This document shows positions 3,849-27,537 of a stretch of 64,000 bases of DNA, piece by piece. Positions within the stretch are counted from its first letter, which is position 1. Each line of letters opens with the position of its first letter. The notes under the pieces are model-generated. The model did not search any database. It was given only the letters and a program-made list of their open reading frames with translations, and was not told where the DNA came from. The translations under genes and the position numbers were made by a program. This DNA is from an uncultured Clostridia bacterium (GTDB taxonomy: Bacteria > Bacillota > Clostridia > Christensenellales > Pumilibacteraceae): assembly GCA_947178255.1 (NCBI GenBank), contig CAMWXP010000004.1, positions 1-64,000 of the forward strand, in the 5' to 3' direction.

Positions 3849-4687
3849 TTTTTGCCCCCTTGCGCCTTAGCCACCGCCGCCGCAAACTCATCCGCAGTCA
3901 GCGGACAGCCTACGTCCATTCCCGCATCGTTGAGCCGCCTTGCAAGCCGCACGTAAAGGGGCAAATCCAGTCCCGCGCCCTCGAACACCTCGGGAGTGTT
4001 AAACAGTTCCTTGCCACCGTCGGCCGCTATACTGCCCTTGTTAAGCACTATTATTCTGTCGGCAGCCGCCGCTTCTTCCATAAAATGGGTTATCATGATA
4101 ACCGCCATATTCTCATCGCGGTTAAGCTTTTTTACAACCTCCAAAACCTCGCGCCTGCCGTTGGGATCAAGCATACCGGTAGCCTCGTCCAGTATCATCA
4201 GCTCGGGCTTGATAGCAAGCACGCCCGCAATGGCGACGCGCTGCTTTTGTCCGCCCGAAAGACGGAAGGGCCCGCTCTTGGCGTGTTCGCTCATACCGAC
4301 GCTTGCTAATGCCCAATCCACGCGCTCTCGTATTTCCTCGGGCGGCAAGCCCAGATTTTCTGGGCCGAAAGCGACGTCGTCCTCGACGATTGTCGTAACC
4401 ATTTGGTTGTCGGGGTTTTGAAAGACTATGCCGATTTTTTTGCGAATGTCAAACAAGGCGCGCTTGTCCGTAGTAGATTGGCCGTCAACCAGCACCTCGC
4501 CGCCGTCGGGCGCAAGTAAGCCGTTGCACAGCCGCGCAAGCGTAGACTTGCCCGAACCGTTACAACCGACAAGCGCAACGAACTCCCCGCGTTCTATCGA
4601 GAATGATACCGACTTTAACGCTTGGATTAGCTCGTCGTCACCGCCGACGTACGAATATTCGACATTTTTGAATTCCAAAAACGACAT
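3845..4687 (-). CDS. ecfA1: ECF transporter ATPase EcfA1
   Basis: Walker A GCNGSGKS, signature LSGGQKQRVAIAG, Walker B LMILDEATGMLDP. Confidence 0.93.
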   Translation of the reverse strand: MSFLEFKNVEYSYVGGDDELIQALKSVSFSIERGEFVALVGCNGSGKSTLARLCNGLLAPDGGEVLVDGQSTTDKRALFDIRKKIGIVFQNPDNQMVTTIVEDDVAFGPENLGLPPEEIRERVDWALASVGMSEHAKSGPFRLSGGQKQRVAIAGVLAIKPELMILDEATGMLDPNGRREVLEVVKKLNRDENMAVIMITHFMEEAAAADRIIVLNKGSIAADGGKELFNTPEVFEGAGLDLPLYVRLARRLNDAGMDVGCPLTADEFAAAVAKAQGGKK

Positions 4688-4810: not shown

Positions 4811-6874
4811 TTATTCGGCGATGTCTAATTTCGCATATATTTCGTCGCATTCCAAGTCGGTAGATTCGCCATTGACATCGGTCAACCGTGCCGTAATGTT
4901 GATATAATTCGAATAAACCGTGCCGTATAATGACAAGCGGTACATTTCATTATCCTCTGTTTCGGGGATAAATACCAAAATCGATATTTGGTTGTCGTGC
5001 GTACTAAACGAAGCGTAGTTGGTCAAGTCGACGCCGTCCACAACAAACTCTACTATCTCGCCGTCGACGATAACAAAATAGTTATTTTCCGTGTCCAGCT
5101 CGTCATTGGACTGCACATAGCAGTACTTGCCGTTAACGTCATAAATTTCGCCGATATTCGGCGCGTCATGACCGCCGATAAAATCCAAGATTTTGTCCAG
5201 CGTATCTTCGTACAGATAGTTGTAAATATCTTGCCAATCGTCGTTGACGTACGATAAAGCAATGACGTAGCCGTAAGAGTTGTTGTCATCAAAGTACACA
5301 ACCGCGTAAAGACTATCGCCGAATTCTACGTCTGTCAGCGCGGATTTTACAAGTGCGCCGTCAAACACGAACGAGCTTGTTGCCGCGTCGAACCTAAACG
5401 CATTTTCTGCGGCGTTCTCGATAAGAGTCGGTTCACCGTTAAGCGGTTGAGTGTACAAACTGTAATCAGTCATATTCACAGTCTGATTACCCGCTTCGAA
5501 GTATACCGATACGTCTTTGTCGGTCACCTCGTACACAAGCGATATAATCGACGTTTTGTATTCCATAGCGGGATTGCACGCGATAACAAAATCTTCGGTC
5601 GAGGTCTTGTACTCGTCGATAACTATCTCCGCAGTAGCGCGGTAATCGTTATCGGCAAGAATAGAACCTTCGGCAGCTGTGCCTTTGTAGTTGTGTGCGA
5701 AGTAGTTATCGAGCTTAACGCCGGTAATCATCTTGTAGTCGCCTATCGTAAGCGTGAGCGTCATGGTAGCATTTGTCAGTTTAACGCCTTCCTTGATTAC
5801 GGTGTACAAGTCGGCGGTTTTCGCGTTGGTTTTGAGCATCTCGACAATGGATTTTACCGTAAAGGTATTTTTAACTGTCGCAACCATGCCGCTTATTTCT
5901 TGCAATCCCGCGGCAATCTCTTCGGCGGAAACTTCTGCATTCAGCATTGCGTCGAGCAAGCCCATGCCTAAGCTTTCCATACCGCCACCCTCGGCAGAGG
6001 AAATATCGTTGTCGTCTTCATCAAGCGTCATAAGGTCGCCCAAGTTTTGCATAATAAAGTTGTATGCGCCTACAACAAGCTTGTTAAGCGGGCGCGCCTT
6101 AATGGCGGTCATTACATCATTGGGCAAAGTGTAGCCGAACGATGCAAGTATAGCTTCCACATCAACGCCCTTTTCCTTCAACGCGTTAAGCAAAGTACCT
6201 ACGGTGTTTTTCGGATTTTTTACGTAATTCTCTACCATGCCATACATTGCGTCAAAGGACTTGTCGAAAAGCAACATGCAATAGTCGTTGAGCAAATCGC
6301 CGATAGACTTATCCTTTTTGTACGCGTTTTGCAAAGGCTCGAGGTATTTGTTTACACTGTCGGCCTTTTCCACGGCAAACGTTACCGTTTTGGCTTGCTC
6401 GTCATAAACGGCGTTAATCTTTTTAGCACCGTCCTCCTGTTTAAGGCTTGCAAGCAAGTATTGCGCGTAATCAAACGCGTTTGCGTAAAACTCGTTAGAA
6501 TATGAATAGTAGTTGCCGTGCTTATAGTAAACGTAACCGGTTTGAAGATCTACTATCATCTCCTCGCCTTCCGACGCCATTTTCAGCTTGGTGCCGCGCT
6601 TGTCGAGATTAACGCTTCCGGTAAGCTTTTGAGTGTTCTTTGTAGACAGCGTGTACGACGCAGTACCGGTAAAGCCTTTCGCGTTCAATACGCCGTTTAC
6701 AGCGTCAAGCGCATCGTTAACCGAGATCGACACCGTATTGTCCGCTTGCGGCGGATCTTGTTTGCCTTGTTCCTTGCCATTGTCGCCACCATTGTTCCCG
6801 CCGCACGCTACAAGCGTAAAGCACAGCACAAACGCAATGATAAGCGAGAATATTGCAACTAATCTCTTTTTCAT
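4811..6874 (-). CDS. Putative lipoprotein of unknown function (687 aa from MKKRLVA)
   Basis: Signal peptide plus lipobox MKKRLVAIFSLIIAFVLCFTLVAC|GGNN; own promoter and terminator. Confidence 0.75.
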   Translation of the reverse strand: MKKRLVAIFSLIIAFVLCFTLVACGGNNGGDNGKEQGKQDPPQADNTVSISVNDALDAVNGVLNAKGFTGTASYTLSTKNTQKLTGSVNLDKRGTKLKMASEGEEMIVDLQTGYVYYKHGNYYSYSNEFYANAFDYAQYLLASLKQEDGAKKINAVYDEQAKTVTFAVEKADSVNKYLEPLQNAYKKDKSIGDLLNDYCMLLFDKSFDAMYGMVENYVKNPKNTVGTLLNALKEKGVDVEAILASFGYTLPNDVMTAIKARPLNKLVVGAYNFIMQNLGDLMTLDEDDNDISSAEGGGMESLGMGLLDAMLNAEVSAEEIAAGLQEISGMVATVKNTFTVKSIVEMLKTNAKTADLYTVIKEGVKLTNATMTLTLTIGDYKMITGVKLDNYFAHNYKGTAAEGSILADNDYRATAEIVIDEYKTSTEDFVIACNPAMEYKTSIISLVYEVTDKDVSVYFEAGNQTVNMTDYSLYTQPLNGEPTLIENAAENAFRFDAATSSFVFDGALVKSALTDVEFGDSLYAVVYFDDNNSYGYVIALSYVNDDWQDIYNYLYEDTLDKILDFIGGHDAPNIGEIYDVNGKYCYVQSNDELDTENNYFVIVDGEIVEFVVDGVDLTNYASFSTHDNQISILVFIPETEDNEMYRLSLYGTVYSNYINITARLTDVNGESTDLECDEIYAKLDIAE

Positions 6875-6908
6875 TTTCAATACCTTCCTATATAGTATTT
6901 GCAATAAT

Positions 6909-6937
6909 AGTATACTATTATTATGGTGATTTGTCAA
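6909..6937 (-). promoter_or_regulatory. SigA-type promoter of the lipoprotein gene
   Basis: TTGACA (6932-6937), 17-bp spacer, TATACT (6909-6914). Confidence 0.78.
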
Positions 6938-6973
6938 CATACGCCACTTGGAATTTTGTCTAAATTTCCAATA

Positions 6974-11561: not shown

Positions 11562-11594
11562 CAAAAAGCGCGAACGGTTTTTGCCGTCCGCGCA
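11562..11594 (-). terminator. Rho-independent terminator of the giant lipoprotein gene
   Basis: GCGCGGACGG-CAAAAA-CCGTTCGCGC followed by TTTTTG, 28 nt after the stop. Confidence 0.85.
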
Positions 11595-11621: not shown

Positions 11622-14600
11622 TCAGTTTATTTCGGCTGTCGTAATCACATAATCCAAGTTCCAATCGGCAGTCCATTTAACGTCGGTGCCTGCGTCATTC
11701 AGACTTGTGACTATATTGACTTTTCCTGCTGTGAATGCCGTTCCCGAAATCGCAACGGTATTCTTGCCCGACGTGCCTTCCATAAACCCTACCATAATGC
11801 TGACTTCGTTCAAATTCTTATCCGCATAATCATAGTACGTTGTTTTGCCGTCAAGCGCGTGCCGACTATCCCACGCTGTTCCTTCGAAGTATGCAAACGC
11901 AGAACCCGGCGTGCCCCAGCTCGGTAGATAACCGAGTTTAATGACAATCGTAGTATCCTTAAACTTGAAGGCAGCCGAATTGGCATCCAACTGTATTTCG
12001 GGCCCGGAAATCCAGAACTGATTTGCGCCGCCGTTCACGTGCTTGCAGTAGAGCGTGTACGTTCCTGCCGCACCAGCCTGTACTTGCAGATAAGTCCTGC
12101 CGTCAACGGTAACCTCTTTAAACTTGGAGCCCATGTCGCTGTTTTCTATTGCGGTGACCCACATATCCCAGCCTTTATGCCAGCCTGCAAACATATCGCC
12201 TACTTCGAGCTTTTTGGTAATCGAATGCTGCGTGCTGGAATCTTCGGTCATCTTGAAGCCGTATTCTTCCGTTACGTCGCTATTGCCGAACTTACCTACA
12301 AGATACACCGTATCGTCACCGACAGCTACCGAACCGGCGGGTTTAACTATTGCAGTCCACTTGGCGTACAGCGTAGTATTGCCGGTAACCTTAGTGCCGT
12401 TTGTGCCGAATACCCATTCGTTGGTGCATGCCGCTTCCTTATACCAGCCGCCGAACTTGTAGCCTGCGCGCGTCGGATCGGCGGGCTTGGTTATGGTGGT
12501 GTTGTAAGTGACGTTGTTGATTGCCGCGACAGCCGAACCGCTTTGGCTGTTGAACGTGACTGTGTACTTATCGATGGTAAAGCGTCCGTAGAGCGGGACG
12601 GATTTAGCCGTGTTCGTGCCGGCAAACAAGCCGCTGTACGTGAGCGAGGTCACCTTGGTGCCTGTATACGTTGCGGAGGTGTACCAGCCGTCAAACGTGT
12701 AACCCGTCTTTGTGGGATTTTTGAGCGTTACGGTTCCACTCTCGATAGTATAAGAGGTAGGATTGCCAGCGGTGTTGGATACGCTGCCGTCAACGTAATA
12801 CGTAACGGTATGAGCAATAGGTGTCCACTTGGCGTAAACCGTCGTGTTAGCCGTCATTGCAGGGAACGTGTACGCAGTTGAGCAAGCCGAAGTAGTATAC
12901 CAGCCGCCAAACGTGTAACCGTCGCGCGTGGGTGCGGGAGAAAGCGCCGAGCCTGCCTCGCCGGACACAACCTTAACGGTCGTGGCTGTGGGCGCACCCG
13001 TGTAGTTGTAGTTGAACACAAGATTTACTGTTACAACCTGCGCAATCTTGGCGTAGAACGTTTTGTCGCCCGTGCTGCCCTTTGCTATCGACGAAACCGC
13101 CGAGCCGGTCAAGCCCGAAGTAGTGTACCAGCCGATAAACGTGTAGCCCGATTTGATGTTGGTCGGGTTGGGCAAGGTTACCGCCTGCTCTACCGTGTAC
13201 GTACTATTTGCCGGAGCCGCGCCGAGCGTAGTGTCGGAAACCACGTACGTGATGTTGTACGTAATTATCGTCCACTTGGCGTACAGCGTGATATTGCTCG
13301 TAACCTTGTCACCGCTCGCGCCGAACGTCCAAGCGTTGGTGCAAGCCGCTTCCTTATACCAGCCGCCGAAGGTATAGCCTGCACGCGTCGGATCGGCGGG
13401 CTTGGTTATCGTGCTGTTGTAGGTTACGGTCGTGTTCTTGCTGACTGCCGAGCCGCCTTGGCTGTCGTACGTTACGGTAATATTGCTGACCGTAACGGTG
13501 AACGTAGCCTTCTTGTTGGCCGCGTCGCCGCCAAGCGAGCCGTTGTAGGTAATAGTGACCGTCTTGGTGCCCGCAGAAGCAGTGATTGCACTCGTGTCGG
13601 TCATAGTATACTCGGTGTTGTGCGTCTTGCCGTCGGTATCGGTTATGGTAACGACCATGCCGGCGGTGCTGAACGTTTCACCCACAAAGTACGTCGTCTT
13701 GGTCGGAGCTGTTACCGTGACCGACGCGATAGTCGGAGGTGCGTACGGCTCTATGCGAATGAAATGATTGCCGTAGTTGTAAACGATATCGTAGAAGCCG
13801 TCATCCAACATTACTGCGACCAAATTGCGTGAATCTGTGCTAAGTCTGAATCCTGCGCCCGTCAAATCGAGGTCACCGCCGTACCAAGCGCCTTTATCCA
13901 CAATCTTAAACGTGTCGTTCTTTTTGAGGTACACGCCGCGGAAGGTTACTCTTGACTGACTGGGTTCATCCTTAACCGTTATTGCGGTGCTTGCGTTAGA
14001 CCAGTCTTTGTGGTACTTAAAGTCGTCGGTAAAGTTACCCGCAATATATATAGCTTGCGCGGGAGCAGCTTCACCGTACGTCAACGCGCCCGTGTTAGAG
14101 GGATTGCGGTTTGTGGTGGGATTAACGGGAACGTCCAAGCTGATAGCCGTGCCGTCCTTTTTGATATACAGCGTCCACGCCACGTCTACGTAACCGACGT
14201 TGATAGAATCTACCTTAAAGTCACCGCCCTCTTTGACGATAGAAATAACGCCGTTATACGTCCATTGCTTGATTTGGTCTTCACCTTCGGGAAGATTTGC
14301 GCCGTACCAAGTATGCTCGCCGTTGGCAACGTATGTTACTACCAAGAACTTGGTGCCTTGTTGCAACTTGACGCCATCAACCTTCCACTCGGTGTCGTTG
14401 TTGTGGCTTACAGGGCTGTACAAATCGGACCACTTGTCGTCCTCTACTTCGGCAGTAAAGTCGGTAAGGATATGCAGGTACGTGCCGGGGGTGACTTCGC
14501 GCAACCACTTGGCGTACAGCGTGATATTTCCGGTTACCTTGTCGGTAGCAAAATCCCACAAGTTTTGGCAAGCCGATTCCTTGTACCAGCCGGCAAATGT

Positions 14601-17600
14601 GTAGCCGCCTTTGGTGGGCGCGGTCGGCGCGGTTATGGTGCTGTTGTAGGTTGCTGTAGTGTTTGCCGCAACTGTCGAACCGCCCTTGCTGTCGTAGGTT
14701 ACGGTAATCTTGTTGACCGTTATGGTGAACGTAGCTTTTTTGTTGGCTTCGTCACCGCCCAAATTGCCGGTATATTTGACCGTAACAGTCTTAGTGCCGG
14801 CAGTAGAGGTATCCGCACCGATAATTTCGTACTCTTCGTTGTGCGTATTACCGTCCGTATCGGTTATGGTAACAACCATGCCGGCAGAGCTAAACGCTTC
14901 GCCTACAAGATAAGTCTTTTTGGTCGGAGGCGTCACCGTGACCGACGCGATAGTGACGGGTACGTATTCTTCCAAGCGGCACCAGTGTGTCGAGCCCGTG
15001 CTGAAAACGATATTATAGAAGCCGTCTTCTATCGAAACCAAAATCATATTGGGTGCGCTTGCTCCCTCAGCATCCGGTTTCGTAGAAATACCGTTGGTCG
15101 GGTTACCCATATCGCCGCCGTACCAAACACCGTTGTACACGATCTTGAACGCGTCGTTCTTTTTAAGGTACACGCCGCGGAAGGTTACTCTACTAGCGGT
15201 CTCACGTTCGTCTAATATCGATATTGCGGTGCTTTCGAGCGACCAATCCTTGTGATACTTAAATCCGTCGGTGAACGTACCGGCAATATATATGGTATTG
15301 TTGGGGCCCGTCGCGGAGTACGTCAATTTGCCCGTGCCTTGAGTGTTGCGGTTTTCGTAAGCGTTGGCGGGAGCCTCCAAGCTGATGCCCGTGCCGTCTT
15401 GCTTGATATACAACGTCCACAACACGTTAGCGTAATTTTCGTCAACCTTAGTTACTTCATAGCTATCACCGTTCGATACGATAGTGACCATTGTAGTAAA
15501 GGTGTATTGCTCAATCGTACTGTTCGGATGATACCAGTCGTCACCCTTGAACGGAATAAACTTGGTGCCCTCTGCCAAACGTACGCCCGTAACTTTAATC
15601 TCGGTACCCTCGTTATGGCTATCGGCGTTCATATCCGTCCACGTGTCGTTTGCGATATTGGTAAGAATATGCAGGCTATATCCGCTGACGTTATTCCACT
15701 TGGCGTACAGCGTGATATTGCCCGTAACCTTGTCGGTAGCGAAGTCCCAAGCCTTGGTCAACGCAGCTTCCTTGTACCAGCCTTCGAATTCGTAGCCGTT
15801 TCTGGTAGGTTCTGCCGGCTCGGTAATAACGGAGTTGTAGCTGTTGCAAGTGATTGTAGTTACGGACGAGCCGCCGTTGCTTTCGAACGTTACGGTGAAC
15901 GGATTTACCTTTACGTTGAACGTAGCGGTTTTGCCGCTGTACGTAACGGTGATTGCAACCGTGTTGCCCGCCGTGATAAATACCTTGCTCGCGTTGAGAG
16001 CGGCGGACGTGAACGTCATGTTATTGTCGTACGCTACGTCTACCGTCTTGCCCGTGTTGTACGATACGGTAAGCACAAGTCCTGTCGGGCTGAACGTATC
16101 GCCGAGGTCGTATACCGCGTCGGTGGGATTGGTCTTGACCGCTATGCCGGAAATCGCTTCGACTGCGTTCGTGGTGTAGGTCGCCTTTGCTACGGTGTTG
16201 CCGCAGATTACCGTGACGGTATTGCTGCCCGCAACGGCAGGCTGAGCAATAACGGTGAAGTCAGCCGCTGCCGCGCCGTCAACCATAACGTTGAACTTGC
16301 TTTCGTCGGGCGTAGTGCCTACAAATATTTGCGCGCCGTCTTTTACGCTGAGCGCGATTTGCTTGTGCGCGGTTATGCTGAGCGTTTTGTTAGCGCTGTC
16401 AAACACTACGTCGTAGAAGCCGCCTTCCGCCATTACCACGATGTTGCCGTCGCTGCTGCTTTCGTATGCGAAGTCGGCAGTTACGGTAAGCTTGTCATCA
16501 CCGTTAAGTCCGAGCCAAGCGTCGCCCATCTTGATTTTGAGCGCGTCGTTGCGCATAAGCTTAACGTTTGCAAAGTAGTACTTGTTGCCGCTCTTTGCCG
16601 TGTCGATTACCGTACTGTTCGACGACCAGTCGTCGTTTTGCTTGAAGCCGTTGGTGAAGTTACCTACGATATACACGTCGGCAGCACCCGTTTCGGTAAA
16701 CGCCGCGGCGGTAGTGCCGTCGGGCTTACGGTTGGTGTCCGCACCGCCCGAGATGGCAAAGCTGATTCCGCTTCCGTCCTTCTTGACGAATATCGTCCAA
16801 ACGGCTTTGGCGTAAGCTTCCTTGCCAGCCTTAAAGGTAATCTTGAAGTTGCTATTTTCGTTGGATACGGTGAATATATCCGTATGCGAGTTCTGCGCAA
16901 AGTTGTACGCGGGATTTATCCAACCGCTGTTGTTTCCTTCCTCGTCGTACGACGTGAATACAAACTCGTCGCCGTCGGTTAGCGTTACGCCTGAAATCTT
17001 CCATTCGTTGCCCCAATCCCATTCTTCGGCTTTGTATTGAGCAAAGTCCTCGTCCCAGCCGGTCATAGTTCCGTAAAGGAATGTGCCGTCCTTGGGATTT
17101 TGACGCCAGCCCGCGTAAATGGTTACGTTGCCGGTAACGGTGTCGGTTGCAAAGTTCCATTCCGTCGTGCAAGCCGCGGTCGTGTACCAACCCTTAAAGT
17201 CGTAACTGTTGCGCGTAGGATCTTCGGGCTTGGTAACGGTGCTGCCGTAAGCAACTTTTTGCGCCGTCGTGGTTTCGTCAAGGACGCCGCCGTTGGCGTC
17301 GAACGTTACCGTGTACTTGTTGTCATATACCGCGGTAAGCGTGATGGTGTTGGTATTGTCGGCAAGCGCGATTAAGCTGCTGTCGAGCTTGGTAACGGCA
17401 TCGCCGTTTTTGTCCTGCCACTCTACAAAGTAGTACGTAGCGGGAGCGGTAGCGTTAACCAGCGTAAAGTCGGCGTCGGTAATCTTGTACGTACCGACGT
17501 TGGCGCCGTTGGTGCCGCCGCCTACCGAGTAATTGATAGTGTAGGTTATAACGTTCCACACTGCGGTGAGCGTTACGTCGTTCGCGGGCATTGCGTAGCT

Positions 17601-20600
17601 TGCGCCTGCGTTATGCGTCGTCGTGCCGTCGTTCCAGCCGCCGAACGTATAACCCGTCTTGCTCGGTGCTGCGGCAAGAGTTACGTTTGCGCCGTACGCC
17701 ACGGTGGACGAAGAATTATCCGTGCCGTTACCGTACACGTAAGTCAACGTGTAGCGTTCCACGTCCCACTGCGCGGTGAGCGTTACCGCCTTGGCGGGCA
17801 TAACGAATATATCGCCCGCGTTGTACGTAGTCGTGCCGTCAAACCAGCCGCCGAACGTGGAGCCTGCTTTAACGGGTGCGGTAAGCGTTATGCTCGTGCC
17901 GTATTCCACTTGCGAGGTGGAGTCCGCCGTGCCGTTGCCGTACACGTAGGTCAAGTCGTAGCTGTTTACGTTCCACGTTGCGTCGAGCGTTATGGGCGCG
18001 GTTATCGGCGTACCGAAGGTATAAGCGCTGCCGTCGAGCGTCCAGCCGCCGAATGCATAGCCTTCCTTAGTGGGCGCTGTCGGAGCGGATATCGTGCCGT
18101 TATAATCGACGTTTGCAGTGAGCTCGGAGAGCACCGTGTCGCCGTCCTTAAAGGTTACGGTAATCTGTGTTACCTCGATGGTAAACGTAGCTGTCTTGCC
18201 GTCGTACGTTACGGTTACGGTTATCGTGCCCGCAGTGTCAGTATTGTTGTTTGTAAGCGCATAGCCTGTGACAATCTCGCTGAAACCGAGCGTGTCGGTT
18301 GCGGTGATTTCCAAGCCCGTAGCGTCGAACGCTTCACCCTTGTAGTACGTCGTCTTGGTGGGCTGTGCCGTTACCGCAATGGATGCGGTGGTCGCTTCGG
18401 CGAACGCAACGATTTTGAGCGTATTGGCATTGGAGTTGTAAATAATATCATACTTGTCGTCGGTGAGCGATGCAAGAACAAGATCGGGCGCATAATCGTC
18501 GGAAAGCTCGATTTCGGCGCCGACCGCGGTGAAGTTACCACCCCACCAGCCGTTGTTTACAATCTTGAACGCATCGTTCTTTTTGAGCTGTACGCCGCGG
18601 AAGGTGTAAACGCCGTCTTTGCTAAGTACCGTTATATCGTCGCTTGCGGTAGACCAAGCTTTATCGCCCTTCCAAAGGGTAAACGTACCGGCAACGTATA
18701 TAGCGCCGTCGGGAACGTTGTCAAACGTCAACGCGCCTACGGTACCGTCGGGACCGCGGTTTTCGTCACCGTTGCGAGCTTCCAAGCTTATGCCGCACGC
18801 ATAAGTGTTTTTGTCAAGCGCGCCGTCCTCGCCTACCGTCACTCCGTCGGTAAGATCGTAAAGGTAAATCGTCCAACCGGAGCCACTGTAGCTTTCGTCG
18901 GCAAGCGTAATCTTGAAGTTGCCGTTCACATTGGAAACGGTTATGGCGTCGTCACTGAACTTGAAGGGAGCTGACAGACCTGCGTTGAGCCAAATGCTGT
19001 TGCCCTCGGCATTTTTGGTAACTACAACAAATTCCATATTGTTGTAAATCTTAACGCCGCGAATGAGAAGCTTGTTTTCAGTGCCTTCTCTTTCAGCCTT
19101 GTAACCGTAAATCCAATCTGTGCCGTTTACGGTGTAACGAAGGAACGTGCCGACATCGCCTTCCCAAGTTGCGACGAGCGTGATGTCGTCCGTTATAGGC
19201 GTGTCAAAGTCGAACGCGCTGCCGTCAAGCGTCCAGCCCGCAAACGTAAATCCGTCCTTGGTGGGCGCGGTCGGCGCGGTGATTGTGCTTCCGTGCTCAA
19301 CGTTTTCAATCGCTTCTACTTCGCTGCCGCCGTTGGTGTCGAACGTTACGGTGTAAAGCTTGATCCACTTTGCGTAAATAGTGGCGTCTGCGGTGACCGT
19401 TTCGGTATCGAAATCCCAAGCGTCTGTGCAAGCGTTGTCCGCGTACCAGCCGTCAAACTTGTAACCCTCTTTTGTCGGGTCGGCGGGCTTGGTTACCTTG
19501 CCGTTGTAATCCACATCGGCGGTATCAAGCACGGTGTCGCCGTCCTTAAAGGTTACGGTAATCTGCGTTACGGTTATGGTAAACGTAGCCGTCTCGCCGT
19601 CATACGTTACGGTTACCGTTATCGTGCCCGTCGCGGCGGTGCTGTTGCCGCTGAGCGTGTAATTCTCGACAACCTCGGTGCTGTCATCCGAATACGTGGC
19701 GGTCACTTCCAAACCGGTAGCGTCAAACGCTTCGCCCTTGAAGTAAGTCGTCTTTGTGGGTTGTTTGGTTACTGCAATGGACGTAAGCGTAGCCGTAGGA
19801 ACGTAAGCGTTTATAGTAAGCGTGCTGTTTACCGAATCGTAAACGATATCGTACTTGCCGGTTGCGAGCGCATAGAGCGTAACGTCGCTACCGCCGTCGG
19901 CAATGCCAAACTCGGTGCCGACCGCAGTAAAGTTACCGCCCAGCCATGCGCCGTTGTTCATAATCTTGAACCTATCGCACTGTTTGAGGTAAACGCCGTG
20001 GAAGGTGTAAACGCCGGCGGCGTCAGTAACTATATCCGTGTTTTCGGTAGACCACGCTTGGTTATAGTTAAAGCCGCCCGTGAAGTTACCGACAATGAAT
20101 ATCTTATCCGAAGGATTGTCGCCGAACTCCAACGTGCCTACGCCATTGGGCGCACGGTATTCGGTGCCGTTAAGAGGAAGCTCAACGGTAACGCCGGAGC
20201 CGTCCTGCTTAATGCGCAAAGTCCAAGCAAGGTCGGCGTAAGCGGTATTAAGCGAGGTTACTTTGTAGTTGCCGCCCTCTGCCTCGATTGTAAGAACGTC
20301 GTTAAAGCCGTATTGCGAAATCGTTCCGTTCGCATTATACCAAGTATTATCGTCGTATCTGACAACAAGGAATTGTGTTCCGACTTGCAGTTTTACGCCC
20401 TCGACCTTCCATTCCATGCCGTAGCCGCCATCAAACTCGACGGGAGTATACAAGTCTTCCCACTTTTCGGGGTCGACACTTGTAAGGACGTGTAAGAACG
20501 TGCCTGTCTTGCCGACTTCCGTCCACTTAGCGTAAAGCGTGATATTGCCAGTTACGGGATCGCCGTCGTCGCCGAACGCCCACTCGTCGGTGAGCTCTTC

Positions 20601-23600
20601 GTCCGCAAACCAGCCGCCGAAGGTGTAGCCCTCTTTGGTGGGTTCGGTAGGCGCTGTAAGCTTGCCGTTTACTACGCTTACGGTTGCGGTTTCGTCGCCT
20701 GTAAGCGTGCCGCCGTTGGCGTTGTACGTTACGGTAAACGGATTTACGGTTACGGTAAACGTAGCCGTCTTGTCGTCGTACGTTACGGTTACGGTAATCG
20801 TGCCCGCCGCAGCAGTGCTGTTGCCGCTGAGCGTATAACCTGTGACAACCTTGCTTTCGCCGTCGGTGTCTGTAGCGGTTACTACCAAGCCCGTAGCGTC
20901 AAACGCTTCGCCCAAGTCATATGCGGTCTTGGTGGGCTCCGTCGTTATTTCGATAGAATCGGTTGCCGCTGGAGCATACGCAACTACGGTGAGTTTTGCA
21001 TTGACTGAATCGTAAACAACGTCGTACTTGCCGGTAGTCAACGTTATAAGCGTAATATTGCGGCTGCCGTTAAGATTGATTTCCTCGCCAACTGCGGAGA
21101 AGTCGCCGCCCAGCCAAGTCGTGCCGTTTACAATCTTGAACGCGTCGTTCTTTTTGAGATACACGCCGCGGAAGGTGTACACGCCGTCTTTTTCGAGTAC
21201 CTTTATTGCAGTGCTTTCGGTAGACCAGGCTTGATTATACATAAAGCCGCCTGTAAAGTTACCCGCAATAAATATCTTATCTGTCGGTCTAGCGGTAAAC
21301 TCCAACGTGCCTTCGCCGTCGGGCGTGCGGCTTTCGTCGGCGTTCTTGGAAAGCGCAACGTAGATAGAATTGGCATTGTCATACTGTTTAAGGCGCAACT
21401 CCCACACCGCGTCAACAAAAGCGCTGTTAATCGTATTTACTATATAGTTGTCGCCGTCAACGCCGATTTCTATAACGTCGTTAGAGTCGCCGTATTGAGT
21501 AAAGCCATATCCGCTTGCGTGATACCATGTATTGCCGTCTTCGCCGTACGTCACTACAAGGAACTTGGTGCCAACTTGCAGGCTTACTCTGTCTATCTGC
21601 CACTCTTTGCCACCGTCGCCGTTAAGCTCGACGGGAGTGTACATATCCGACCATTTGTCGTTTTCGATATCGGTAAGAACGTGCAAGAACGTGCCGATAA
21701 GCTTATTCTTGACAAGAATAGTTACGGTGGTTTCCATGCCGCTCGCGGTTACCGCAATCGTCTTTTCACCCGCCGTCGTCATGTCGACAGCGCCGATTTC
21801 GAACTCGGAGATTTCCTCGGTTGTGTTGTCCGAATAATTGCCCGTTACGACAATGTCCGTCTTGTCGAACGTATCGTTGACCTTGTACTGCTTGCTGGCG
21901 TTTTTGAGCGTAGCGGTAATGCTCGTAAGCGTGCGTACGGGCTGCGCCGCGTTTACCGTGATGGTAACGGTCTCTTCTTCTTCGCCGTACGTGACGGTTA
22001 TCGTCTTTTCGCCCGCCGTCGTCATGTCGGGAGCGGTGAAAGTAAAGTCGTCAACCGTTTCGGTCGTGTCGTCCGAATAATGCGCGGTTACTATAATATC
22101 CGTCTTGTTAAACGCGTCGCCTACCATGTAGGTCTTGGTCGCGTCGGCGAGCTCGGCGGTAATGCCGGTAAGCGTGCGTTCGGGCTGCTCTTCAGTCCAG
22201 CCTGCATAAAGAGTTATGTCGTCCGTCACCTTGTCGGTGTCGAAGTTCCACGCATCGGTGCAAGCGGCGTCCTTAAACCAACCGTCGAAGGTATAGCCCT
22301 CTTTGGTGAGGTCTTCGGGCGCGGTAAGCTTTTGGTTATATTCGGACGTTACGGTAAGCGCCGACAATTCGGTTTCGCCGTCCATAAACATTACGTTAAT
22401 CATCGATACTTCGATGTCGAACGTAGCCGTAAGTGTGCCGCACGTTACCGTAACGGTTACTGTGCCTGTTGTGTCGGTAGTGTTGCCGCTGAGCGTGTAA
22501 TCTGTAATCGTCTTGGTCAAGCCTTCGGTATCGGTGGCCGTTACAACCAAGCCCTCGGCGTCGAAGTCCTCGCCCTTGAAGTAATTCGTTTTGGTGGGTT
22601 CGGTCTTGACCGCAATGGACGCGATTTCCGCGGGCACGTAAGCCTTGATAGTCAGCTTGCCGCCTACCGAATCGTAAACGATATCGTACAGCCCGTCGGT
22701 GAGCGCCGCGAGTGTAATGTTGCGGTCGCTGTTAAGATTGAGCTGGGTGCCGACTGCAACAAAGTTGCCGCCCTTCCAATTGCCGTTATCCACAATCTTG
22801 AACGCGTCGTTCTTTTTGAGGTACACGCCGCGGAAGGTGTAAACGCCGTTATTGTTAAGTACGGTTACAGCAGTGCTTTCGGTAGACCAGTCTTTGTGAT
22901 ACAAGAAGCCGCCGGTAAAGTTACCAGCAATGAATATCTTGTCGTCAGGTCTTGTGCCGAACGTCAACGTGCCCTCGCCGTCCGTCGCGCGGCTTTCGTC
23001 CGCGTTCTTGGAAAGCTCGATGCTTATAGAGTTGGCGTACCCTTCCTTTTTGATATACAGCTTCCACACCGCGTCTGCGTAGGCGGGGTTGATAGCTGTT
23101 ACTATATAGTTATCGCCGTCGACGCCTATGGTGATGATATCGTCACAGCCGCCGTATTGAGTAAAGCCGTCCGCACTTGCGTGATACCAATCGCCGCCCT
23201 TGTATGCGAGGAATTTGACGCCCACAGCCAGGTGCACGCCGTCTACTATTACCTCGCCGTTGTTTTCGGGATTGATTGCGGCGTCCACATCCTCCCACGT
23301 TTCGGGATCGGTTTGGGTGAGTATATGCAGGTAATAACCTACGCTCTCGTCCTCCGTCCACTTGGCGTAAATGGTGGTGGTGCTCGTAATCTTATCGGAA
23401 TCGAAGTTCCACGCTACGGTGTAATTTTCGTCCTTGAACCAGCCGTCGAATATATAGCCGTACCTTGTGGGATCGGCGGGTTGGGTAACAGTGCCGTTGT
23501 AATCGACTTCCTGCGCCTCGACCGCGCTGCCGCCCTTGCTGTCGAACGTGACGGTATAGCTGGATTGCGGTTCGTTTACCGTTACGGTAAACGTTTTGGT

Positions 23601-26600
23601 CTTGCCTTGGTAGGTGACCGTTACCGTTTGCGTACCAGTCTGCGCCTTGTTGTAGCCGGTTATCGAGCAAGCGGAAAGCGCAACGTCCGATTTGTAGCCG
23701 TTGGTGTATACCGCTTTTACGGTCAAGCCCGCGGTATCGAGATTGTCGCCTACCGTGTATTCCGTTCTTGCGGGCGGGGTGATTTCGATACCGCTAAGAG
23801 TAATCGCCGCGTACGCTTTGATAGTAAGCTTATTATTTACGGAATCGTAAACAAGATCGTATTTGCCGGTAGTCAGCGCGAAAAGCATAATGTTGTCGCC
23901 ATCGCCGATATCGAACTGCGTGCCTACCGCGGTAAAGTTGCCGCCCAGCCAAGAACCGTTATTTACAATCTTGAACCTGTCGCCCTGTTTGAGGTACACG
24001 CCGCGGAATACGTAAATTCCGTCGCTGCTGAGTACCGTCATTTTGGTGCTTTCGGTAGACCAGTCTACGTGGTACTTAAAGTCGTCGGTAAAGTTACCGG
24101 CAATATAAATCTTGTCGCCTACGCCGTCGCCGAACGTCAATTTGCCGTTGCCGTCGGGAGTGCGGTTTTCGACGCCGTTTTGCGGAAGCTCCAAATAGAC
24201 GTAAGTGCCGTCCAGCTTAATGGTCATCGTCCACGACACGTTTAAGTACGCGCTGTCGATCCGCGTCACTTCATAATTGTCGCCGTTGCCGACGATAGTA
24301 ATAATATTATCGTAGTTGTGAGCGAAGTATTCACTGCTGGAATGATACCAATCGGTACCGTCTTGCTTGTAGTCTACGACAAGGAATTTAGTACCTACTT
24401 GCAGCTTGACTCCGGTAACCTTCCACTCGGCGCCGTAGTCACCGTCCTGCCAAACGGCGGTGTACTTCTCCTCCCACTTATCGGCGGCGATATCTGTAAG
24501 AATGTACAGATACGAGCCCGTTTTGGTATTCCTTACGTCAATCTTTACCCAGCCTTCCAAGCCGCTGTAACTGACGGAGAACCACTTTTCGCCCGGCGTG
24601 GACATGTCGGGAGCATTAATCGTATACCCCGAAATGAGCGCCCTTACGCCGTCCGAGTTTACAGTTCTGACGTACAAGTCGTTCTTGACAACGGTATCGC
24701 CAACTTTAAAAATCTTATCGGGATTTCTAAGCTCGACTTCAAGACCCGTTAAAGTAGCTTCCGTATACTTCTTTATACGAAGCGTGCTGTCGTAGGTATT
24801 GTAAACGATGTCGTACCAACCGTTGTTTATAGACGTGAGCGCTATATCCTCAGAATAATCGCCGTGGATCCAGAACTCTTGATCGAGCGCTTCAAAGTTG
24901 CCGCTCAGCCAGTTGCCGTTGTTGACAATCTTGAACGCGTCGTTCTTTTTAAGGTAAACATGGCGGAAGGTGTAAGTGCCCCAGCTTTCGAGCACGGTTA
25001 CCGCCTTACTTTCGGTAGACCAGCTTTGATGATACTTAAAGCCGTCGGTAAACGTACCGGCAATAAATATCTTGTCGTTCGGTCTGTCCTCGCTGAACGC
25101 CCAATTAACAGTGCCGTTGACTGCGGGACTGCGTTTTTCGTTGGCGTTGCGGGGAACAAGGCTTATGCCCCAGCCGCTCTTTTTGATGTAAAGCGTCCAC
25201 GTCAGTTTATCGTAGCCGCTTGCCATCTTTGTTACTTTAAAGTTTCCGTCGTTGTAGACAACGGTAATAACGTCGTTGGCGTTCCATTGCGTAAAGCCGT
25301 CTTGAGCGTTGTACCAATTATCCCAGCCGTCGCCATGCTCTACAACAAGGAATTCCGTACCCACTTGCAGCTTGACGTCCGCAACTTTCCACTCGCTGTC
25401 ATCGCTATCCTCGTTGTGTCCTACCGGATTGTACTTATCTTCCCAAGGGCTGTTGTCGTTAGCGCGAACACGCATAAACTTGCCCTGTTGTACGTTATAC
25501 GTCCAGCTTGCGACAAGGGTAATATCGCCCGTGATGGGAGTATTAAAGTCGAACGGGCTGCCGTACAGCGTCCAGCCGTTAAATCCGTGCAAGTCTTTTA
25601 CGGGATTGGCGGGCTTTGTAGCCGGCTTGTTGTATTCCACCTGCTGAGTTTGATGTTCTTCCTCGCCGTTGTCCGCGTCGAACGTTACGGTGTATACAGC
25701 AATGTTCCACTTGGCGTACAATGTGACGTCATATGTGACCGTATCGACGTCGAAGTCCCAAGTATCGGTGCAGTCTACGTCCGTAAACCAACCGTCAAAG
25801 TTGTAGCCGGTGCGCGTAGGCGCGGGATTAAGCGCCGTGGCAACCGTGCCCTCTTGAACGTTGGCGGTTTTGGTTATAGGCGTTTCGTCGTAGTTGTAAT
25901 TGAACGTTACCGTAAACGTCTTGATAGCGGCTATACGCGCATAGAACGTTTTTTCGCCGGTCGAGCCGAGCTCGATACCCGTTACCTTGTGCGCGTTGTC
26001 GTAAACGGCGTTGCCGTCCTCATCCTCGCCCACCTCGTCGTACCAGCCGATAAAGGTGTAACCCTCTTTGATGTCGGTAGGATCGAGCAAGTCAACGACG
26101 TCCTCTATGGTGTACGTTACCTTTTCGGGCGCGGTGGCGTAGGGATTGCCGTCCTCGTCGTTTTCTATAACGTAGTTGATGTCATACTCGATAGCCGTCC
26201 ATTTGGCGGTGAGCGTAAAGTATTCGGTCACCTCGGAGTCAAAGTCGTACGCTTGGTCTTCGTCGTCCTTGAACCAGCCGTCAAAGGTGTAGCCGACGCG
26301 CTCGAAATCGCCGTCGGGCTGCGTGATTTTTGCGTATTTATCCACGGTTTGCGCGGCAGGGTTTTCTATGCCGACAACGCCCGTGACAAAGCTTACCGTG
26401 CGTTCTGCCTGCGTAACGGTAACGATAAAGCTGTCTTCAAAATTCTTATACGAAATAGTTACGGTTTGATCGCCTTTTTCGGAGCTGTCAAAGCCCGATA
26501 CGTCAAAGTCGCCCTCTGTCAAATATTCGGTGTGGATAATGGTTTGGTCGTTGGCGTAATCGGCCGTTACGACTATGCCCGTCAAATCCAGTCTGTCGCC

Positions 26601-27461
26601 AACGTCGTAGTCGGTTTTGTCGGGGTATGTTATGATTTGAACTCTTTCGAGATACGCTACCGTAACGGCAAACGTTTTGAATTTGCCGCCGTAGGTGACG
26701 GTAACCGTTTGATCGCCGAGCACGTCCTTGTTGTAGCCCGTGACTTCGCAATCGGCAATTTCTAAGTTTTCCTCGCTTTCGTCGGTGTATACCGCGGTTA
26801 TGGCTAAGCCGGTCAGGTCAAGCTCCTCGCCTACCGTGTATATCCTTTTGGTAGGGGGCACAATGTTGATGTAGTCGAGCGCACGCGCGGCGGAAGCAAC
26901 GGTAAAATTAACCGCTTTGGTCTTGCCGCCGTAAGAAACGGTAATCGTCTTTTGCCCTGCGGTGGACATGTCGGGGTTGGGAGTGTATGTAAAATCGGTA
27001 ACCGCGCGCTCGGAGCCATCCGAATACTTGGCGGTAACCGTTATATCGCTCTTGTTGAACGTGTCGCCAACCTTGTACTGCTTGGTTACCGACGCGTCGA
27101 TTTCCGTAAGCGTGGGCGATACAATATTATTGTCCTGCCACTGCGCATACAGCTTTAAGTCTGCGACGACAAGCGTGGAAAAGTTGTACGAAACATTTCC
27201 GGCGGCATCGACCGTCCAGTCCGTGAACGTATAATTCGCCCGTGTGGGATTTGTCGGCTTTTTTGCCGCCGTATTTGCATCCACACTGTCCGTGCGGTAA
27301 ACCCCATTGTTGGGCGCACCGTCGTAGTTGTAATAGTACGTTACGGTGTACGTTTTTTCCTTATTGTCGGGCGCCTTAACTTCCGAACACGCCACGGCAA
27401 ATCCGGCTGTCAATGCCAAAACAAAGACAATAAACAATATCCCTATTCTTTTCCTCATCAT
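11622..27461 (-). CDS. Giant (about 5,280 aa) modular lipoprotein with InlB-B-type repeats, Ig-like domains and a nine-copy aromatic-rich module
   Basis: Signal peptide and lipobox LALTAGFAVAC; start MMRKRIG preceded by GGGGG; uninterrupted frame; repeats catalogued in findings. Confidence 0.88.
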   Translation of the reverse strand: MMRKRIGILFIVFVLALTAGFAVACSEVKAPDNKEKTYTVTYYYNYDGAPNNGVYRTDSVDANTAAKKPTNPTRANYTFTDWTVDAAGNVSYNFSTLVVADLKLYAQWQDNNIVSPTLTEIDASVTKQYKVGDTFNKSDITVTAKYSDGSERAVTDFTYTPNPDMSTAGQKTITVSYGGKTKAVNFTVASAARALDYINIVPPTKRIYTVGEELDLTGLAITAVYTDESEENLEIADCEVTGYNKDVLGDQTVTVTYGGKFKTFAVTVAYLERVQIITYPDKTDYDVGDRLDLTGIVVTADYANDQTIIHTEYLTEGDFDVSGFDSSEKGDQTVTISYKNFEDSFIVTVTQAERTVSFVTGVVGIENPAAQTVDKYAKITQPDGDFERVGYTFDGWFKDDEDQAYDFDSEVTEYFTLTAKWTAIEYDINYVIENDEDGNPYATAPEKVTYTIEDVVDLLDPTDIKEGYTFIGWYDEVGEDEDGNAVYDNAHKVTGIELGSTGEKTFYARIAAIKTFTVTFNYNYDETPITKTANVQEGTVATALNPAPTRTGYNFDGWFTDVDCTDTWDFDVDTVTYDVTLYAKWNIAVYTVTFDADNGEEEHQTQQVEYNKPATKPANPVKDLHGFNGWTLYGSPFDFNTPITGDITLVASWTYNVQQGKFMRVRANDNSPWEDKYNPVGHNEDSDDSEWKVADVKLQVGTEFLVVEHGDGWDNWYNAQDGFTQWNANDVITVVYNDGNFKVTKMASGYDKLTWTLYIKKSGWGISLVPRNANEKRSPAVNGTVNWAFSEDRPNDKIFIAGTFTDGFKYHQSWSTESKAVTVLESWGTYTFRHVYLKKNDAFKIVNNGNWLSGNFEALDQEFWIHGDYSEDIALTSINNGWYDIVYNTYDSTLRIKKYTEATLTGLEVELRNPDKIFKVGDTVVKNDLYVRTVNSDGVRALISGYTINAPDMSTPGEKWFSVSYSGLEGWVKIDVRNTKTGSYLYILTDIAADKWEEKYTAVWQDGDYGAEWKVTGVKLQVGTKFLVVDYKQDGTDWYHSSSEYFAHNYDNIITIVGNGDNYEVTRIDSAYLNVSWTMTIKLDGTYVYLELPQNGVENRTPDGNGKLTFGDGVGDKIYIAGNFTDDFKYHVDWSTESTKMTVLSSDGIYVFRGVYLKQGDRFKIVNNGSWLGGNFTAVGTQFDIGDGDNIMLFALTTGKYDLVYDSVNNKLTIKAYAAITLSGIEITPPARTEYTVGDNLDTAGLTVKAVYTNGYKSDVALSACSITGYNKAQTGTQTVTVTYQGKTKTFTVTVNEPQSSYTVTFDSKGGSAVEAQEVDYNGTVTQPADPTRYGYIFDGWFKDENYTVAWNFDSDKITSTTTIYAKWTEDESVGYYLHILTQTDPETWEDVDAAINPENNGEVIVDGVHLAVGVKFLAYKGGDWYHASADGFTQYGGCDDIITIGVDGDNYIVTAINPAYADAVWKLYIKKEGYANSISIELSKNADESRATDGEGTLTFGTRPDDKIFIAGNFTGGFLYHKDWSTESTAVTVLNNNGVYTFRGVYLKKNDAFKIVDNGNWKGGNFVAVGTQLNLNSDRNITLAALTDGLYDIVYDSVGGKLTIKAYVPAEIASIAVKTEPTKTNYFKGEDFDAEGLVVTATDTEGLTKTITDYTLSGNTTDTTGTVTVTVTCGTLTATFDIEVSMINVMFMDGETELSALTVTSEYNQKLTAPEDLTKEGYTFDGWFKDAACTDAWNFDTDKVTDDITLYAGWTEEQPERTLTGITAELADATKTYMVGDAFNKTDIIVTAHYSDDTTETVDDFTFTAPDMTTAGEKTITVTYGEEEETVTITVNAAQPVRTLTSITATLKNASKQYKVNDTFDKTDIVVTGNYSDNTTEEISEFEIGAVDMTTAGEKTIAVTASGMETTVTILVKNKLIGTFLHVLTDIENDKWSDMYTPVELNGDGGKEWQIDRVSLQVGTKFLVVTYGEDGNTWYHASGYGFTQYGDSNDVIEIGVDGDNYIVNTINSAFVDAVWELRLKQYDNANSIYVALSKNADESRTPDGEGTLEFTARPTDKIFIAGNFTGGFMYNQAWSTESTAIKVLEKDGVYTFRGVYLKKNDAFKIVNGTTWLGGDFSAVGEEINLNGSRNITLITLTTGKYDVVYDSVNAKLTVVAYAPAATDSIEITTEPTKTAYDLGEAFDATGLVVTATDTDGESKVVTGYTLSGNSTAAAGTITVTVTYDDKTATFTVTVNPFTVTYNANGGTLTGDETATVSVVNGKLTAPTEPTKEGYTFGGWFADEELTDEWAFGDDGDPVTGNITLYAKWTEVGKTGTFLHVLTSVDPEKWEDLYTPVEFDGGYGMEWKVEGVKLQVGTQFLVVRYDDNTWYNANGTISQYGFNDVLTIEAEGGNYKVTSLNTAYADLAWTLRIKQDGSGVTVELPLNGTEYRAPNGVGTLEFGDNPSDKIFIVGNFTGGFNYNQAWSTENTDIVTDAAGVYTFHGVYLKQCDRFKIMNNGAWLGGNFTAVGTEFGIADGGSDVTLYALATGKYDIVYDSVNSTLTINAYVPTATLTSIAVTKQPTKTTYFKGEAFDATGLEVTATYSDDSTEVVENYTLSGNSTAATGTITVTVTYDGETATFTITVTQITVTFKDGDTVLDTADVDYNGKVTKPADPTKEGYKFDGWYADNACTDAWDFDTETVTADATIYAKWIKLYTVTFDTNGGSEVEAIENVEHGSTITAPTAPTKDGFTFAGWTLDGSAFDFDTPITDDITLVATWEGDVGTFLRYTVNGTDWIYGYKAEREGTENKLLIRGVKIYNNMEFVVVTKNAEGNSIWLNAGLSAPFKFSDDAITVSNVNGNFKITLADESYSGSGWTIYLYDLTDGVTVGEDGALDKNTYACGISLEARNGDENRGPDGTVGALTFDNVPDGAIYVAGTFTLWKGDKAWSTASDDITVLSKDGVYTFRGVQLKKNDAFKIVNNGWWGGNFTAVGAEIELSDDYAPDLVLASLTDDKYDIIYNSNANTLKIVAFAEATTASIAVTAQPTKTTYYKGEAFDATGLEITATDTLGFSEIVTGYALTNNNTDTAGTITVTVTYDGKTATFTIEVTQITVTFKDGDTVLSELTANVDYNGTISAPTAPTKEGYAFGGWTLDGSAYTFGTPITAPITLDATWNVNSYDLTYVYGNGTADSTSQVEYGTSITLTAPVKAGSTFGGWFDGTTTYNAGDIFVMPAKAVTLTAQWDVERYTLTYVYGNGTDNSSSTVAYGANVTLAAAPSKTGYTFGGWNDGTTTHNAGASYAMPANDVTLTAVWNVITYTINYSVGGGTNGANVGTYKITDADFTLVNATAPATYYFVEWQDKNGDAVTKLDSSLIALADNTNTITLTAVYDNKYTVTFDANGGVLDETTTAQKVAYGSTVTKPEDPTRNSYDFKGWYTTAACTTEWNFATDTVTGNVTIYAGWRQNPKDGTFLYGTMTGWDEDFAQYKAEEWDWGNEWKISGVTLTDGDEFVFTSYDEEGNNSGWINPAYNFAQNSHTDIFTVSNENSNFKITFKAGKEAYAKAVWTIFVKKDGSGISFAISGGADTNRKPDGTTAAAFTETGAADVYIVGNFTNGFKQNDDWSSNSTVIDTAKSGNKYYFANVKLMRNDALKIKMGDAWLGLNGDDKLTVTADFAYESSSDGNIVVMAEGGFYDVVFDSANKTLSITAHKQIALSVKDGAQIFVGTTPDESKFNVMVDGAAAADFTVIAQPAVAGSNTVTVICGNTVAKATYTTNAVEAISGIAVKTNPTDAVYDLGDTFSPTGLVLTVSYNTGKTVDVAYDNNMTFTSAALNASKVFITAGNTVAITVTYSGKTATFNVKVNPFTVTFESNGGSSVTTITCNSYNSVITEPAEPTRNGYEFEGWYKEAALTKAWDFATDKVTGNITLYAKWNNVSGYSLHILTNIANDTWTDMNADSHNEGTEIKVTGVRLAEGTKFIPFKGDDWYHPNSTIEQYTFTTMVTIVSNGDSYEVTKVDENYANVLWTLYIKQDGTGISLEAPANAYENRNTQGTGKLTYSATGPNNTIYIAGTFTDGFKYHKDWSLESTAISILDERETASRVTFRGVYLKKNDAFKIVYNGVWYGGDMGNPTNGISTKPDAEGASAPNMILVSIEDGFYNIVFSTGSTHWCRLEEYVPVTIASVTVTPPTKKTYLVGEAFSSAGMVVTITDTDGNTHNEEYEIIGADTSTAGTKTVTVKYTGNLGGDEANKKATFTITVNKITVTYDSKGGSTVAANTTATYNSTITAPTAPTKGGYTFAGWYKESACQNLWDFATDKVTGNITLYAKWLREVTPGTYLHILTDFTAEVEDDKWSDLYSPVSHNNDTEWKVDGVKLQQGTKFLVVTYVANGEHTWYGANLPEGEDQIKQWTYNGVISIVKEGGDFKVDSINVGYVDVAWTLYIKKDGTAISLDVPVNPTTNRNPSNTGALTYGEAAPAQAIYIAGNFTDDFKYHKDWSNASTAITVKDEPSQSRVTFRGVYLKKNDTFKIVDKGAWYGGDLDLTGAGFRLSTDSRNLVAVMLDDGFYDIVYNYGNHFIRIEPYAPPTIASVTVTAPTKTTYFVGETFSTAGMVVTITDTDGKTHNTEYTMTDTSAITASAGTKTVTITYNGSLGGDAANKKATFTVTVSNITVTYDSQGGSAVSKNTTVTYNSTITKPADPTRAGYTFGGWYKEAACTNAWTFGASGDKVTSNITLYAKWTIITYNITYVVSDTTLGAAPANSTYTVEQAVTLPNPTNIKSGYTFIGWYTTSGLTGSAVSSIAKGSTGDKTFYAKIAQVVTVNLVFNYNYTGAPTATTVKVVSGEAGSALSPAPTRDGYTFGGWYTTSACSTAYTFPAMTANTTVYAKWTPIAHTVTYYVDGSVSNTAGNPTSYTIESGTVTLKNPTKTGYTFDGWYTSATYTGTKVTSLTYSGLFAGTNTAKSVPLYGRFTIDKYTVTFNSQSGSAVAAINNVTYNTTITKPADPTRAGYKFGGWYKEAACTNEWVFGTNGTKVTGNTTLYAKWTAIVKPAGSVAVGDDTVYLVGKFGNSDVTEEYGFKMTEDSSTQHSITKKLEVGDMFAGWHKGWDMWVTAIENSDMGSKFKEVTVDGRTYLQVQAGAAGTYTLYCKHVNGGANQFWISGPEIQLDANSAAFKFKDTTIVIKLGYLPSWGTPGSAFAYFEGTAWDSRHALDGKTTYYDYADKNLNEVSIMVGFMEGTSGKNTVAISGTAFTAGKVNIVTSLNDAGTDVKWTADWNLDYVITTAEIN
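13740..14490 (-). repeat. Aromatic-rich module copy 9
   Basis: YLHILTDFTAEVEDDKWSDLY...QAIYIAGNFTDDFKYHKDWSNAS...VYLKKNDTFKIVDKGAWYGGDL. Confidence 0.8.
14960..15687 (-). repeat. Aromatic-rich module copy 8
   Basis: SLHILTNIANDTWTDM...NTIYIAGTFTDGFKYHKDWSLES...VYLKKNDAFKIVYNGVWYGGDM. Confidence 0.8.
16355..17089 (-). repeat. Aromatic-rich module copy 7 (most divergent)
   Basis: FLYGTMTGWDEDFAQY...ADVYIVGNFTNGFKQNDDWSSNS...VKLMRNDALKIKMGDAWLGLN. Confidence 0.7.
18393..19155 (-). repeat. Aromatic-rich module copy 6
   Basis: FLRYTVNGTDWIYGY...GAIYVAGTFTLWKGDKAWSTAS...VQLKKNDAFKIVNNGWWGGNF. Confidence 0.75.
19798..20508 (-). repeat. Aromatic-rich module copy 5
   Basis: FLHVLTSVDPEKWEDLY...DKIFIVGNFTGGFNYNQAWSTEN...VYLKQCDRFKIMNNGAWLGGNF. 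Confidence 0.8.
20975..21699 (-). repeat. Aromatic-rich module copy 4
   Basis: FLHVLTDIENDKWSDMY...DKIFIAGNFTGGFMYNQAWSTES...VYLKKNDAFKIVNGTTWLGGDF. Confidence 0.8.
22637..23343 (-). repeat. Aromatic-rich module copy 3
   Basis: YLHILTQTDPETWEDV...DKIFIAGNFTGGFLYHKDWSTES...VYLKKNDAFKIVDNGNWKGGNF. Confidence 0.8.
23812..24522 (-). repeat. Aromatic-rich module copy 2
   Basis: YLYILTDIAADKWEEKY...DKIYIAGNFTDDFKYHVDWSTES...VYLKQGDRFKIVNNGSWLGGNF. Confidence 0.8.
24770..25494 (-). repeat. Aromatic-rich module copy 1 (coding repeat)
   Basis: FMRVRANDNSPWEDKY...DKIFIAGTFTDGFKYHQSWSTES...VYLKKNDAFKIVNNGNWLSGNF. Confidence 0.8.
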
Positions 27462-27508: not shown

Positions 27509-27537
27509 ATGATACTACTTTTGCCATAGTTTGTCAA
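27509..27537 (-). promoter_or_regulatory. Putative promoter of the giant lipoprotein gene
   Basis: TTGACA (27532-27537), 17-bp spacer, TATCAT (27509-27514). Confidence 0.6.

Follow-up and report, generated by a model that had tools for sequence, protein, structure and literature searches.

The window, a stretch of 64,000 nucleotides from an uncultured Clostridia bacterium, possesses a gene for a giant lipoprotein of 5,279 amino acids (11622..27461, minus strand). At a probability of about 0.75, this protein is a lipid-anchored multivalent tether with which a monoderm Clostridia cell captures alpha-glucan (starch or glycogen) at its surface. According to this reading, lipidation of the N-terminal cysteine would hold the chain in the membrane, and the Ig-like and InlB-type repeats would form a long stalk through and past the cell wall, 150-200 nm in length by a rough estimate. 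The stalk would carry domains of the SusE/SusF-X25 starch-binding superfamily, nine tandem pairs of them and a single one. With its many sites, each chain would keep granular starch or long glucans close to the lipoprotein GH13 amylases of the same cell, and the amylase products would then pass to a maltodextrin importer.

Gene structure and assembly

The gene starts with ATG at 27461, stops at 11622-11624 and has no internal stop codon. The single uninterrupted frame with a lipobox described in the initial annotation, where the strand was left unnamed, was found intact on the minus strand, on which all features of the gene given here are situated. The N-terminus of the protein is MMRKRIGILFIVFVLALTAGFAVAC, in which a signal peptide and the lipobox FAVA|C occupy aa 1-25 (27387..27461) as judged from the sequence. 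A promoter-like site, TTGACA-17-TATCAT (11/12; 27509..27537), is present upstream as a consensus scan match only and not as functional evidence, and a terminator-like hairpin of 10 pairs followed by TTTTT, likewise a consensus match only, is located just 3' of the stop (11568..11593). Because of these two flanking signals the gene is probably a single-gene, monocistronic-looking unit. An origin of the repeat series in assembly collapse or chimera is unlikely and was rejected, because the copies have diverged considerably from one another and the module series recurs in an independent MAG (G004), on two contigs and broken only by the gap between them. Module 3 of G004 and module 3 of the giant are 97-98% identical.

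Domain organization

Nine modules of ~240 aa each are present, in agreement with the initial annotation, and all of them match module 3 at E <= 2e-24 in phmmer. They are placed at aa 660-906 (module 1; 24744..25484), 982-1222 (module 2; 23796..24518), 1374-1614 (module 3; 22620..23342), 1922-2168 (module 4; 20958..21698), 2319-2559 (module 5; 19785..20507), 2776-3026 (module 6; 18384..19136), 3466-3706 (module 7; 16344..17066), 3926-4172 (module 8; 14946..15686) and 4322-4580 (module 9; 13722..14498). The modules are 31-60% identical to module 3 and the nine-copy alignment has 19 invariant columns.

Local profiles distinguished 14 Ig-like domains, 21 InlB-type repeats, nine modules and one C-terminal domain in the chain. 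Their order is B-I-I-I-B-B-B-B-M1-I-M2-I-B-M3-I-B-I-I-M4-I-B-M5-I-B-B-M6-I-B-B-B-B-M7-I-B-M8-I-B-M9-I-B-B-B-B-B-C, where I is Ig-like, B is InlB-type, M is a module and C is the C-terminal domain. Pfam counted 13 Big_3 (9+4), 21 Flg_new (8+13) and three Flg_new_2 domains. These spacers, Ig-like (Big_3) and InlB-type (Flg_new, Flg_new_2), are distributed before, between and after the modules (12357..27353). The initial count of about 15 Ig-like domains compares with 14 by local profiles and 13 by Pfam, and that of about 22 InlB-like repeats falls within the observed 21 (local profiles) to 24 (Flg_new plus Flg_new_2). The earlier picture of nine regular supermodules holds for the Ig-like domain, which directly follows every module, but not for the InlB repeats, which come next in irregular numbers from 0 to 5.

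The earlier tally had also overlooked a single C-terminal SusE/X25-like domain at aa 5050-5150 (12012..12314), with which the chain has 19 such domains, nine tandem pairs and one single. It was matched at E 1.6e-14 in a search of its own genome by the A3 profile, a 30-member alignment of the ~100-aa domain that includes sister proteins recruited by iteration and also this domain itself. The last ~130 aa of the protein (aa ~5151-5279; 11625-12011) have no family match and show a loose resemblance to the C-termini of the sister giants (L028-L030) and to CBM26-type domains.

Sequence relationship of the modules

A confident Pfam or CBM match covering the ~235-aa module, named in the initial annotation as evidence against its proposal, was not found; no Pfam family scored above its cut-off and only weak SusF_SusE matches were seen (E 0.002-0.003). 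When the second half of module 3 was used alone, Pfam SusF_SusE (PF16411) was matched at E 6e-4 with 20.5 bits, and as this does not reach the cut-off of 27.5 bits, the domain was filed as a distant superfamily relative and not as a member of PF16411. The view of the module as two related halves was confirmed by hhalign, in which half 1 against half 2 gave 91.5% (8.5e-7), compared with <1% for control Ig and InlB domains of this protein.

Iterated profile searches through the window and the sister proteins gathered one family of ~100-aa domains, to which half 1, half 2, the single domain at aa 5050-5150 and many repeats of sister-species lipoproteins belong. Pfam SusF_SusE was matched by 11 of the 30 family members (best 3e-7). 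Against PDB, the top matches of A3 were SusF (4fe9, 4e-7) and SusE (4fch, 3e-6; 4fem, 9e-6), then SGBPdex (9sji, 0.011), and lower down a glycogen branching enzyme and the starch-binding domain of a glucoamylase appeared at E 0.35-0.39 amid chance-level matches. The whole-module profiles A1 and A2 gave only noise-level matches to PDB, and a phmmer search of PDB with a sister-species 4-repeat lipoprotein returned nothing.

Half 2 was also compared with curated X25 domains (PF22058), collected through the PF22058 model from other genera of the phylum. They aligned at 95.3% (2.3e-8, hhalign), the unrelated Ig and InlB controls giving <1%, with 'KDW' positioned on 'DW', 'FKIVDNGNW' on 'YKVALNGNW' and 'NI' on 'NV/NI'. 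Half 1 showed no direct match to X25 (0.2%, hhalign) and is placed in the superfamily because of its likeness to half 2. These comparisons support each module as a tandem pair of related SusE/SusF-X25 superfamily beta-sandwiches. The module earlier called unfamiliar now has a place in this superfamily, and is less unfamiliar than it had seemed. The initial guess of a SusE/SusF-type or CBM-like starch-binding fold gains from the SusF (4e-7), SusE (3e-6) and X25 (95%) matches, and from the predicted fold and gene context of relatives given below.

Predicted structure and conserved residues

AlphaFold2 predicted an all-beta structure for the whole of module 3 (pLDDT 92) and an 8-strand all-beta structure for its second half (pLDDT 91), which is encoded at 22620..22976, with approximate bounds, and carries Trp152, Lys182 and Trp189 in module numbering. 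Checking the model by Foldseek, as proposed initially, succeeded for half 2 alone. It matched the N/F domain of Amy703 (probability 1.00), a Klebsiella maltohexaose-forming amylase (0.99), X25-2 of Ruminococcus bromii Sca5 (0.99) and SusF (0.98), with E-values for the amylase and starch-binding domain matches of only 0.013-0.064. The whole module gave no confident Foldseek match, probably because two diverged domains were compared jointly, and hence the clamshell geometry discussed below is not supported by this search.

Residue conservation was counted over 29 modules from the genus. Half 2 is marked by W152 (29/29), K182 (28/29), W189 (27/29) and N or D at 208 (27/29), and this Trp-Lys-Trp-Asn/Asp set aligns with the DW...YKV....W...N columns of X25. 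At the matching places, half 1 has W16 in 26 of 29 modules and, at position 52, tryptophan in 20 and tyrosine in five. In R. bromii Sca5X25-2, a tandem X25 pair of ~240 aa, one maltooligosaccharide is bound between the lobes through tryptophans from both lobes, Lys654 and Asn564/684/687; the lobes do not bind when separated, and the Kd for maltoheptaose is 0.2-0.6 uM for Sca5X25-2 and the closely homologous Sas20d2 (PMC9112005). The spacing from lysine to tryptophan is +7 in the module (K182 to W189), the same as from K654 to W661 in Sca5 (PMC9112005). By analogy, the second sandwich of each pair would present its Trp-Lys-Trp-Asn set where X25 domains contact maltooligosaccharide, the first sandwich would add two conserved tryptophans, and the pair may form one shared four-Trp clamshell site as in Sas20d2/Sca5X25-2.

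The possibility that the modules are catalytic beta-sandwiches, which would make the protein an enzyme, draws on two SusE-like proteins with reported galactosidase activity (PMC8211771). It is very improbable here, as the nine modules of the giant lack an invariant hydrolase-type acidic pair, D179 being the sole invariant acid, and no enzyme family was found above cut-off.

Anchoring and genomic context

Lgt was found in the genome of the giant (2.6e-51), and neither sortase nor Omp85 was found in this 96%-complete genome. These three results support a monoderm cell with a lipid anchor as the surface route, and they strengthen the N-terminal lipidation suggested initially. An LPXTG anchor was dropped, as no sortase was found in the genome.

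The same genome has 11 GH13 matches, including two adjacent lipoprotein GH13 enzymes with the same InlB repeats (L079). In sister species, relatives of the single domain are found next to GH13 amylases and ABC transporters of the maltodextrin type. In G011, a 4-repeat lipoprotein of the single domain shares its locus with genes that Pfam types as LacI regulator, GH13, solute-binding protein and two permeases. This gene order is repeated in G016 and G018, as judged from gene positions, lengths and sequence starts, and a similar one occurs in G006; in G002 single-domain relatives adjoin GH13 lipoproteins.

Other genes with related domains were also observed. In the giant's genome, four consecutive genes on contig C6 (L099; 2852-13233, minus strand) encode lipoproteins of 440, 759, 944 and 965 aa, each with a lipobox-like start, and SusE/X25-like domain matches were obtained in three of the four over two profile searches. 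They are likely, from their sequence, to form a second alpha-glucan-binding cluster of this genome. In the same genome, a protein of 1,703 aa without a lipobox (L061; contig C33, 3066-8174, minus strand) contains InlB repeats and a SusE/X25-like domain and has a sub-threshold match to the CBM26 starch-binding family (E 0.0036). In G001, a 666-aa lipoprotein (L066; contig C21, minus strand) shows one SusE/X25-like domain along with a region resembling, by eye, the spore-coat CotH kinase.

The giant gene itself lies in a locus with the order FakA - Fe-ADH - PHP (divergent) - giant - SpoIIE - TypA, which is conserved among sister species to the extent of the contigs covered. An operon with a starch locus was dropped, since the neighbours TypA, SpoIIE, Fe-ADH and FakA are housekeeping genes. 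Downstream of TypA there is a 709-aa lipoprotein (LVACGG; 4811-6940, minus strand) without a Pfam match, and further on in the window a 952-aa frame (50221-53079, minus strand) without an NCBIfam match.

The most serious rival is that the same domains serve another ligand, the X25 fold having been re-aimed to turn the protein into an adhesin that recognises glycans of hosts or plants, such as mucin, dextran or pectin side chains. Stalks of InlB and Ig repeats are frequent among host adhesins, and the position of the giant gene outside any starch operon also favors such a role. In addition, dextran binding is known among SusE/F relatives (PMC10316084), and activity on galactosides has been reported for 'SusE-like' proteins (PMC8211771). 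Against this, the starch-contacting Trp-Lys-Trp set is nearly invariant, and the closest relatives, within and beyond the genus, are found in or beside GH13 enzymes. We consider the re-aimed adhesin unlikely, and mucin binding, which the initial annotation proposed to test, found no support in this analysis. An internalin-type invasin was dropped, as there was no LRR match.

Distribution and expansion of the module

The paired module was found in 14 of 74 family genomes (E 1e-8), all from one genus among the 18 searched. Outside the genus, the only matches in 300 genomes of the phylum fall in a GH13-like protein, which is read as a pullulanase from its YNWGYDP motif. From species to species the number of module copies varies from 1 to 9 and the length of the protein from ~1,900 to 5,280 aa. 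In the phylogenetic tree, copies 1-5, 8 and 9 formed a single clade together with copies from G004 (99/99), copy 6 was grouped with sister-species modules, and copy 7 was positioned apart with its own G004 counterpart. Since seven of the nine copies share this one clade with G004 copies, the tree indicates that the expansion is mostly lineage-specific, by internal duplication.

Such variation in copy number and length, together with a half 1 that no longer has a clear likeness to X25, would fit a surface fibre with a mainly structural role, in a coat or biofilm or as a spacer, whose modules have ceased to bind sugar. The ligand-platform tryptophans and lysine are, on the other hand, invariant in nine of nine copies despite the lineage-specific duplications, a constraint needless for a spacer, and this makes the structural fibre quite improbable.

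Comparison with known systems

A close counterpart of the module is Sas20d2/Sca5X25-2 of the Gram-positive starch user R. bromii (PDB 7rpy; PMC9112005), also a ~240-aa tandem X25 pair with four conserved tryptophans and a lysine seven residues before the key tryptophan, to which one half of the module is matched by Foldseek at 0.99. In the R. bromii proteins each chain has a single doublet, accompanied either by a dockerin or by cohesins plus a sortase signal, whereas the giant is a lipoprotein with nine doublets, a much diverged first half, no sortase found and no fold match found for the whole doublet. Dockerin or cohesin domains of the R. bromii-type amylosome had no match within the giant protein itself.

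SusE/SusF of Bacteroides thetaiotaomicron (4fch, 4fem, 4fe9), the best PDB profile matches, are likewise surface lipoproteins with serial starch-binding sandwiches. They have two or three sandwiches, an outer membrane and a SusC/D operon, in contrast to the 19 sandwiches of the giant in a monoderm cell. The features of the Bacteroides Sus system, SusC/SusD partners and an outer membrane, were not seen here, as the typed neighbours are housekeeping genes and Omp85 was not found in the genome. X25_BaPul-like domains (PF22058) of pullulanases and amylases resemble half 2 (profile-profile 95%, W-K-W-N aligned); they are accessory domains of enzymes, whereas the giant chain has no catalytic domain. 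Surface proteins with InlB and Big_3 repeats (PF09479, PF07523) share the spacer repeats with the giant, which differs in having no internalin LRR match and in having binding modules from the starch-binding superfamily.

In the open-licence literature, as far as its accessible parts go, no work evidently links InlB or Listeria-Bacteroides repeat proteins with starch, so novelty is not proven, and none was found on multivalent tandem X25. Starch tethering was already known, as were the spacer repeats and the domain superfamily. The novelty lies in the scale, nine doublets and one single domain in a lipoprotein of 5,279 aa, in a doublet that is limited to one genus and whose first half has diverged, and in the use of this doublet in a chain lacking sortase or scaffoldin features. 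The analysis suggests a likely function, alpha-glucan capture, for a genus-wide family of 1,900-5,300-aa InlB-repeat proteins in which InlB and Ig are the only recognisable Pfam domains. It also suggests that monoderm Clostridia may hold starch polyvalently by means of a lipid-anchored fibre. The doublets offer small candidate starch-binding units amenable to testing, and the series of 1 to 9 copies across sister species amounts to a natural avidity experiment. A broader proposal, which we put at somewhat below even odds, is that Clostridia have a second, independent mode of holding starch, in which the cohesin-dockerin amylosome is replaced and the giant lipoprotein of one genus, with up to nine clamshell doublets and copies growing by internal duplication, would act as a free-standing polyvalent tether on a sortase-less cell.
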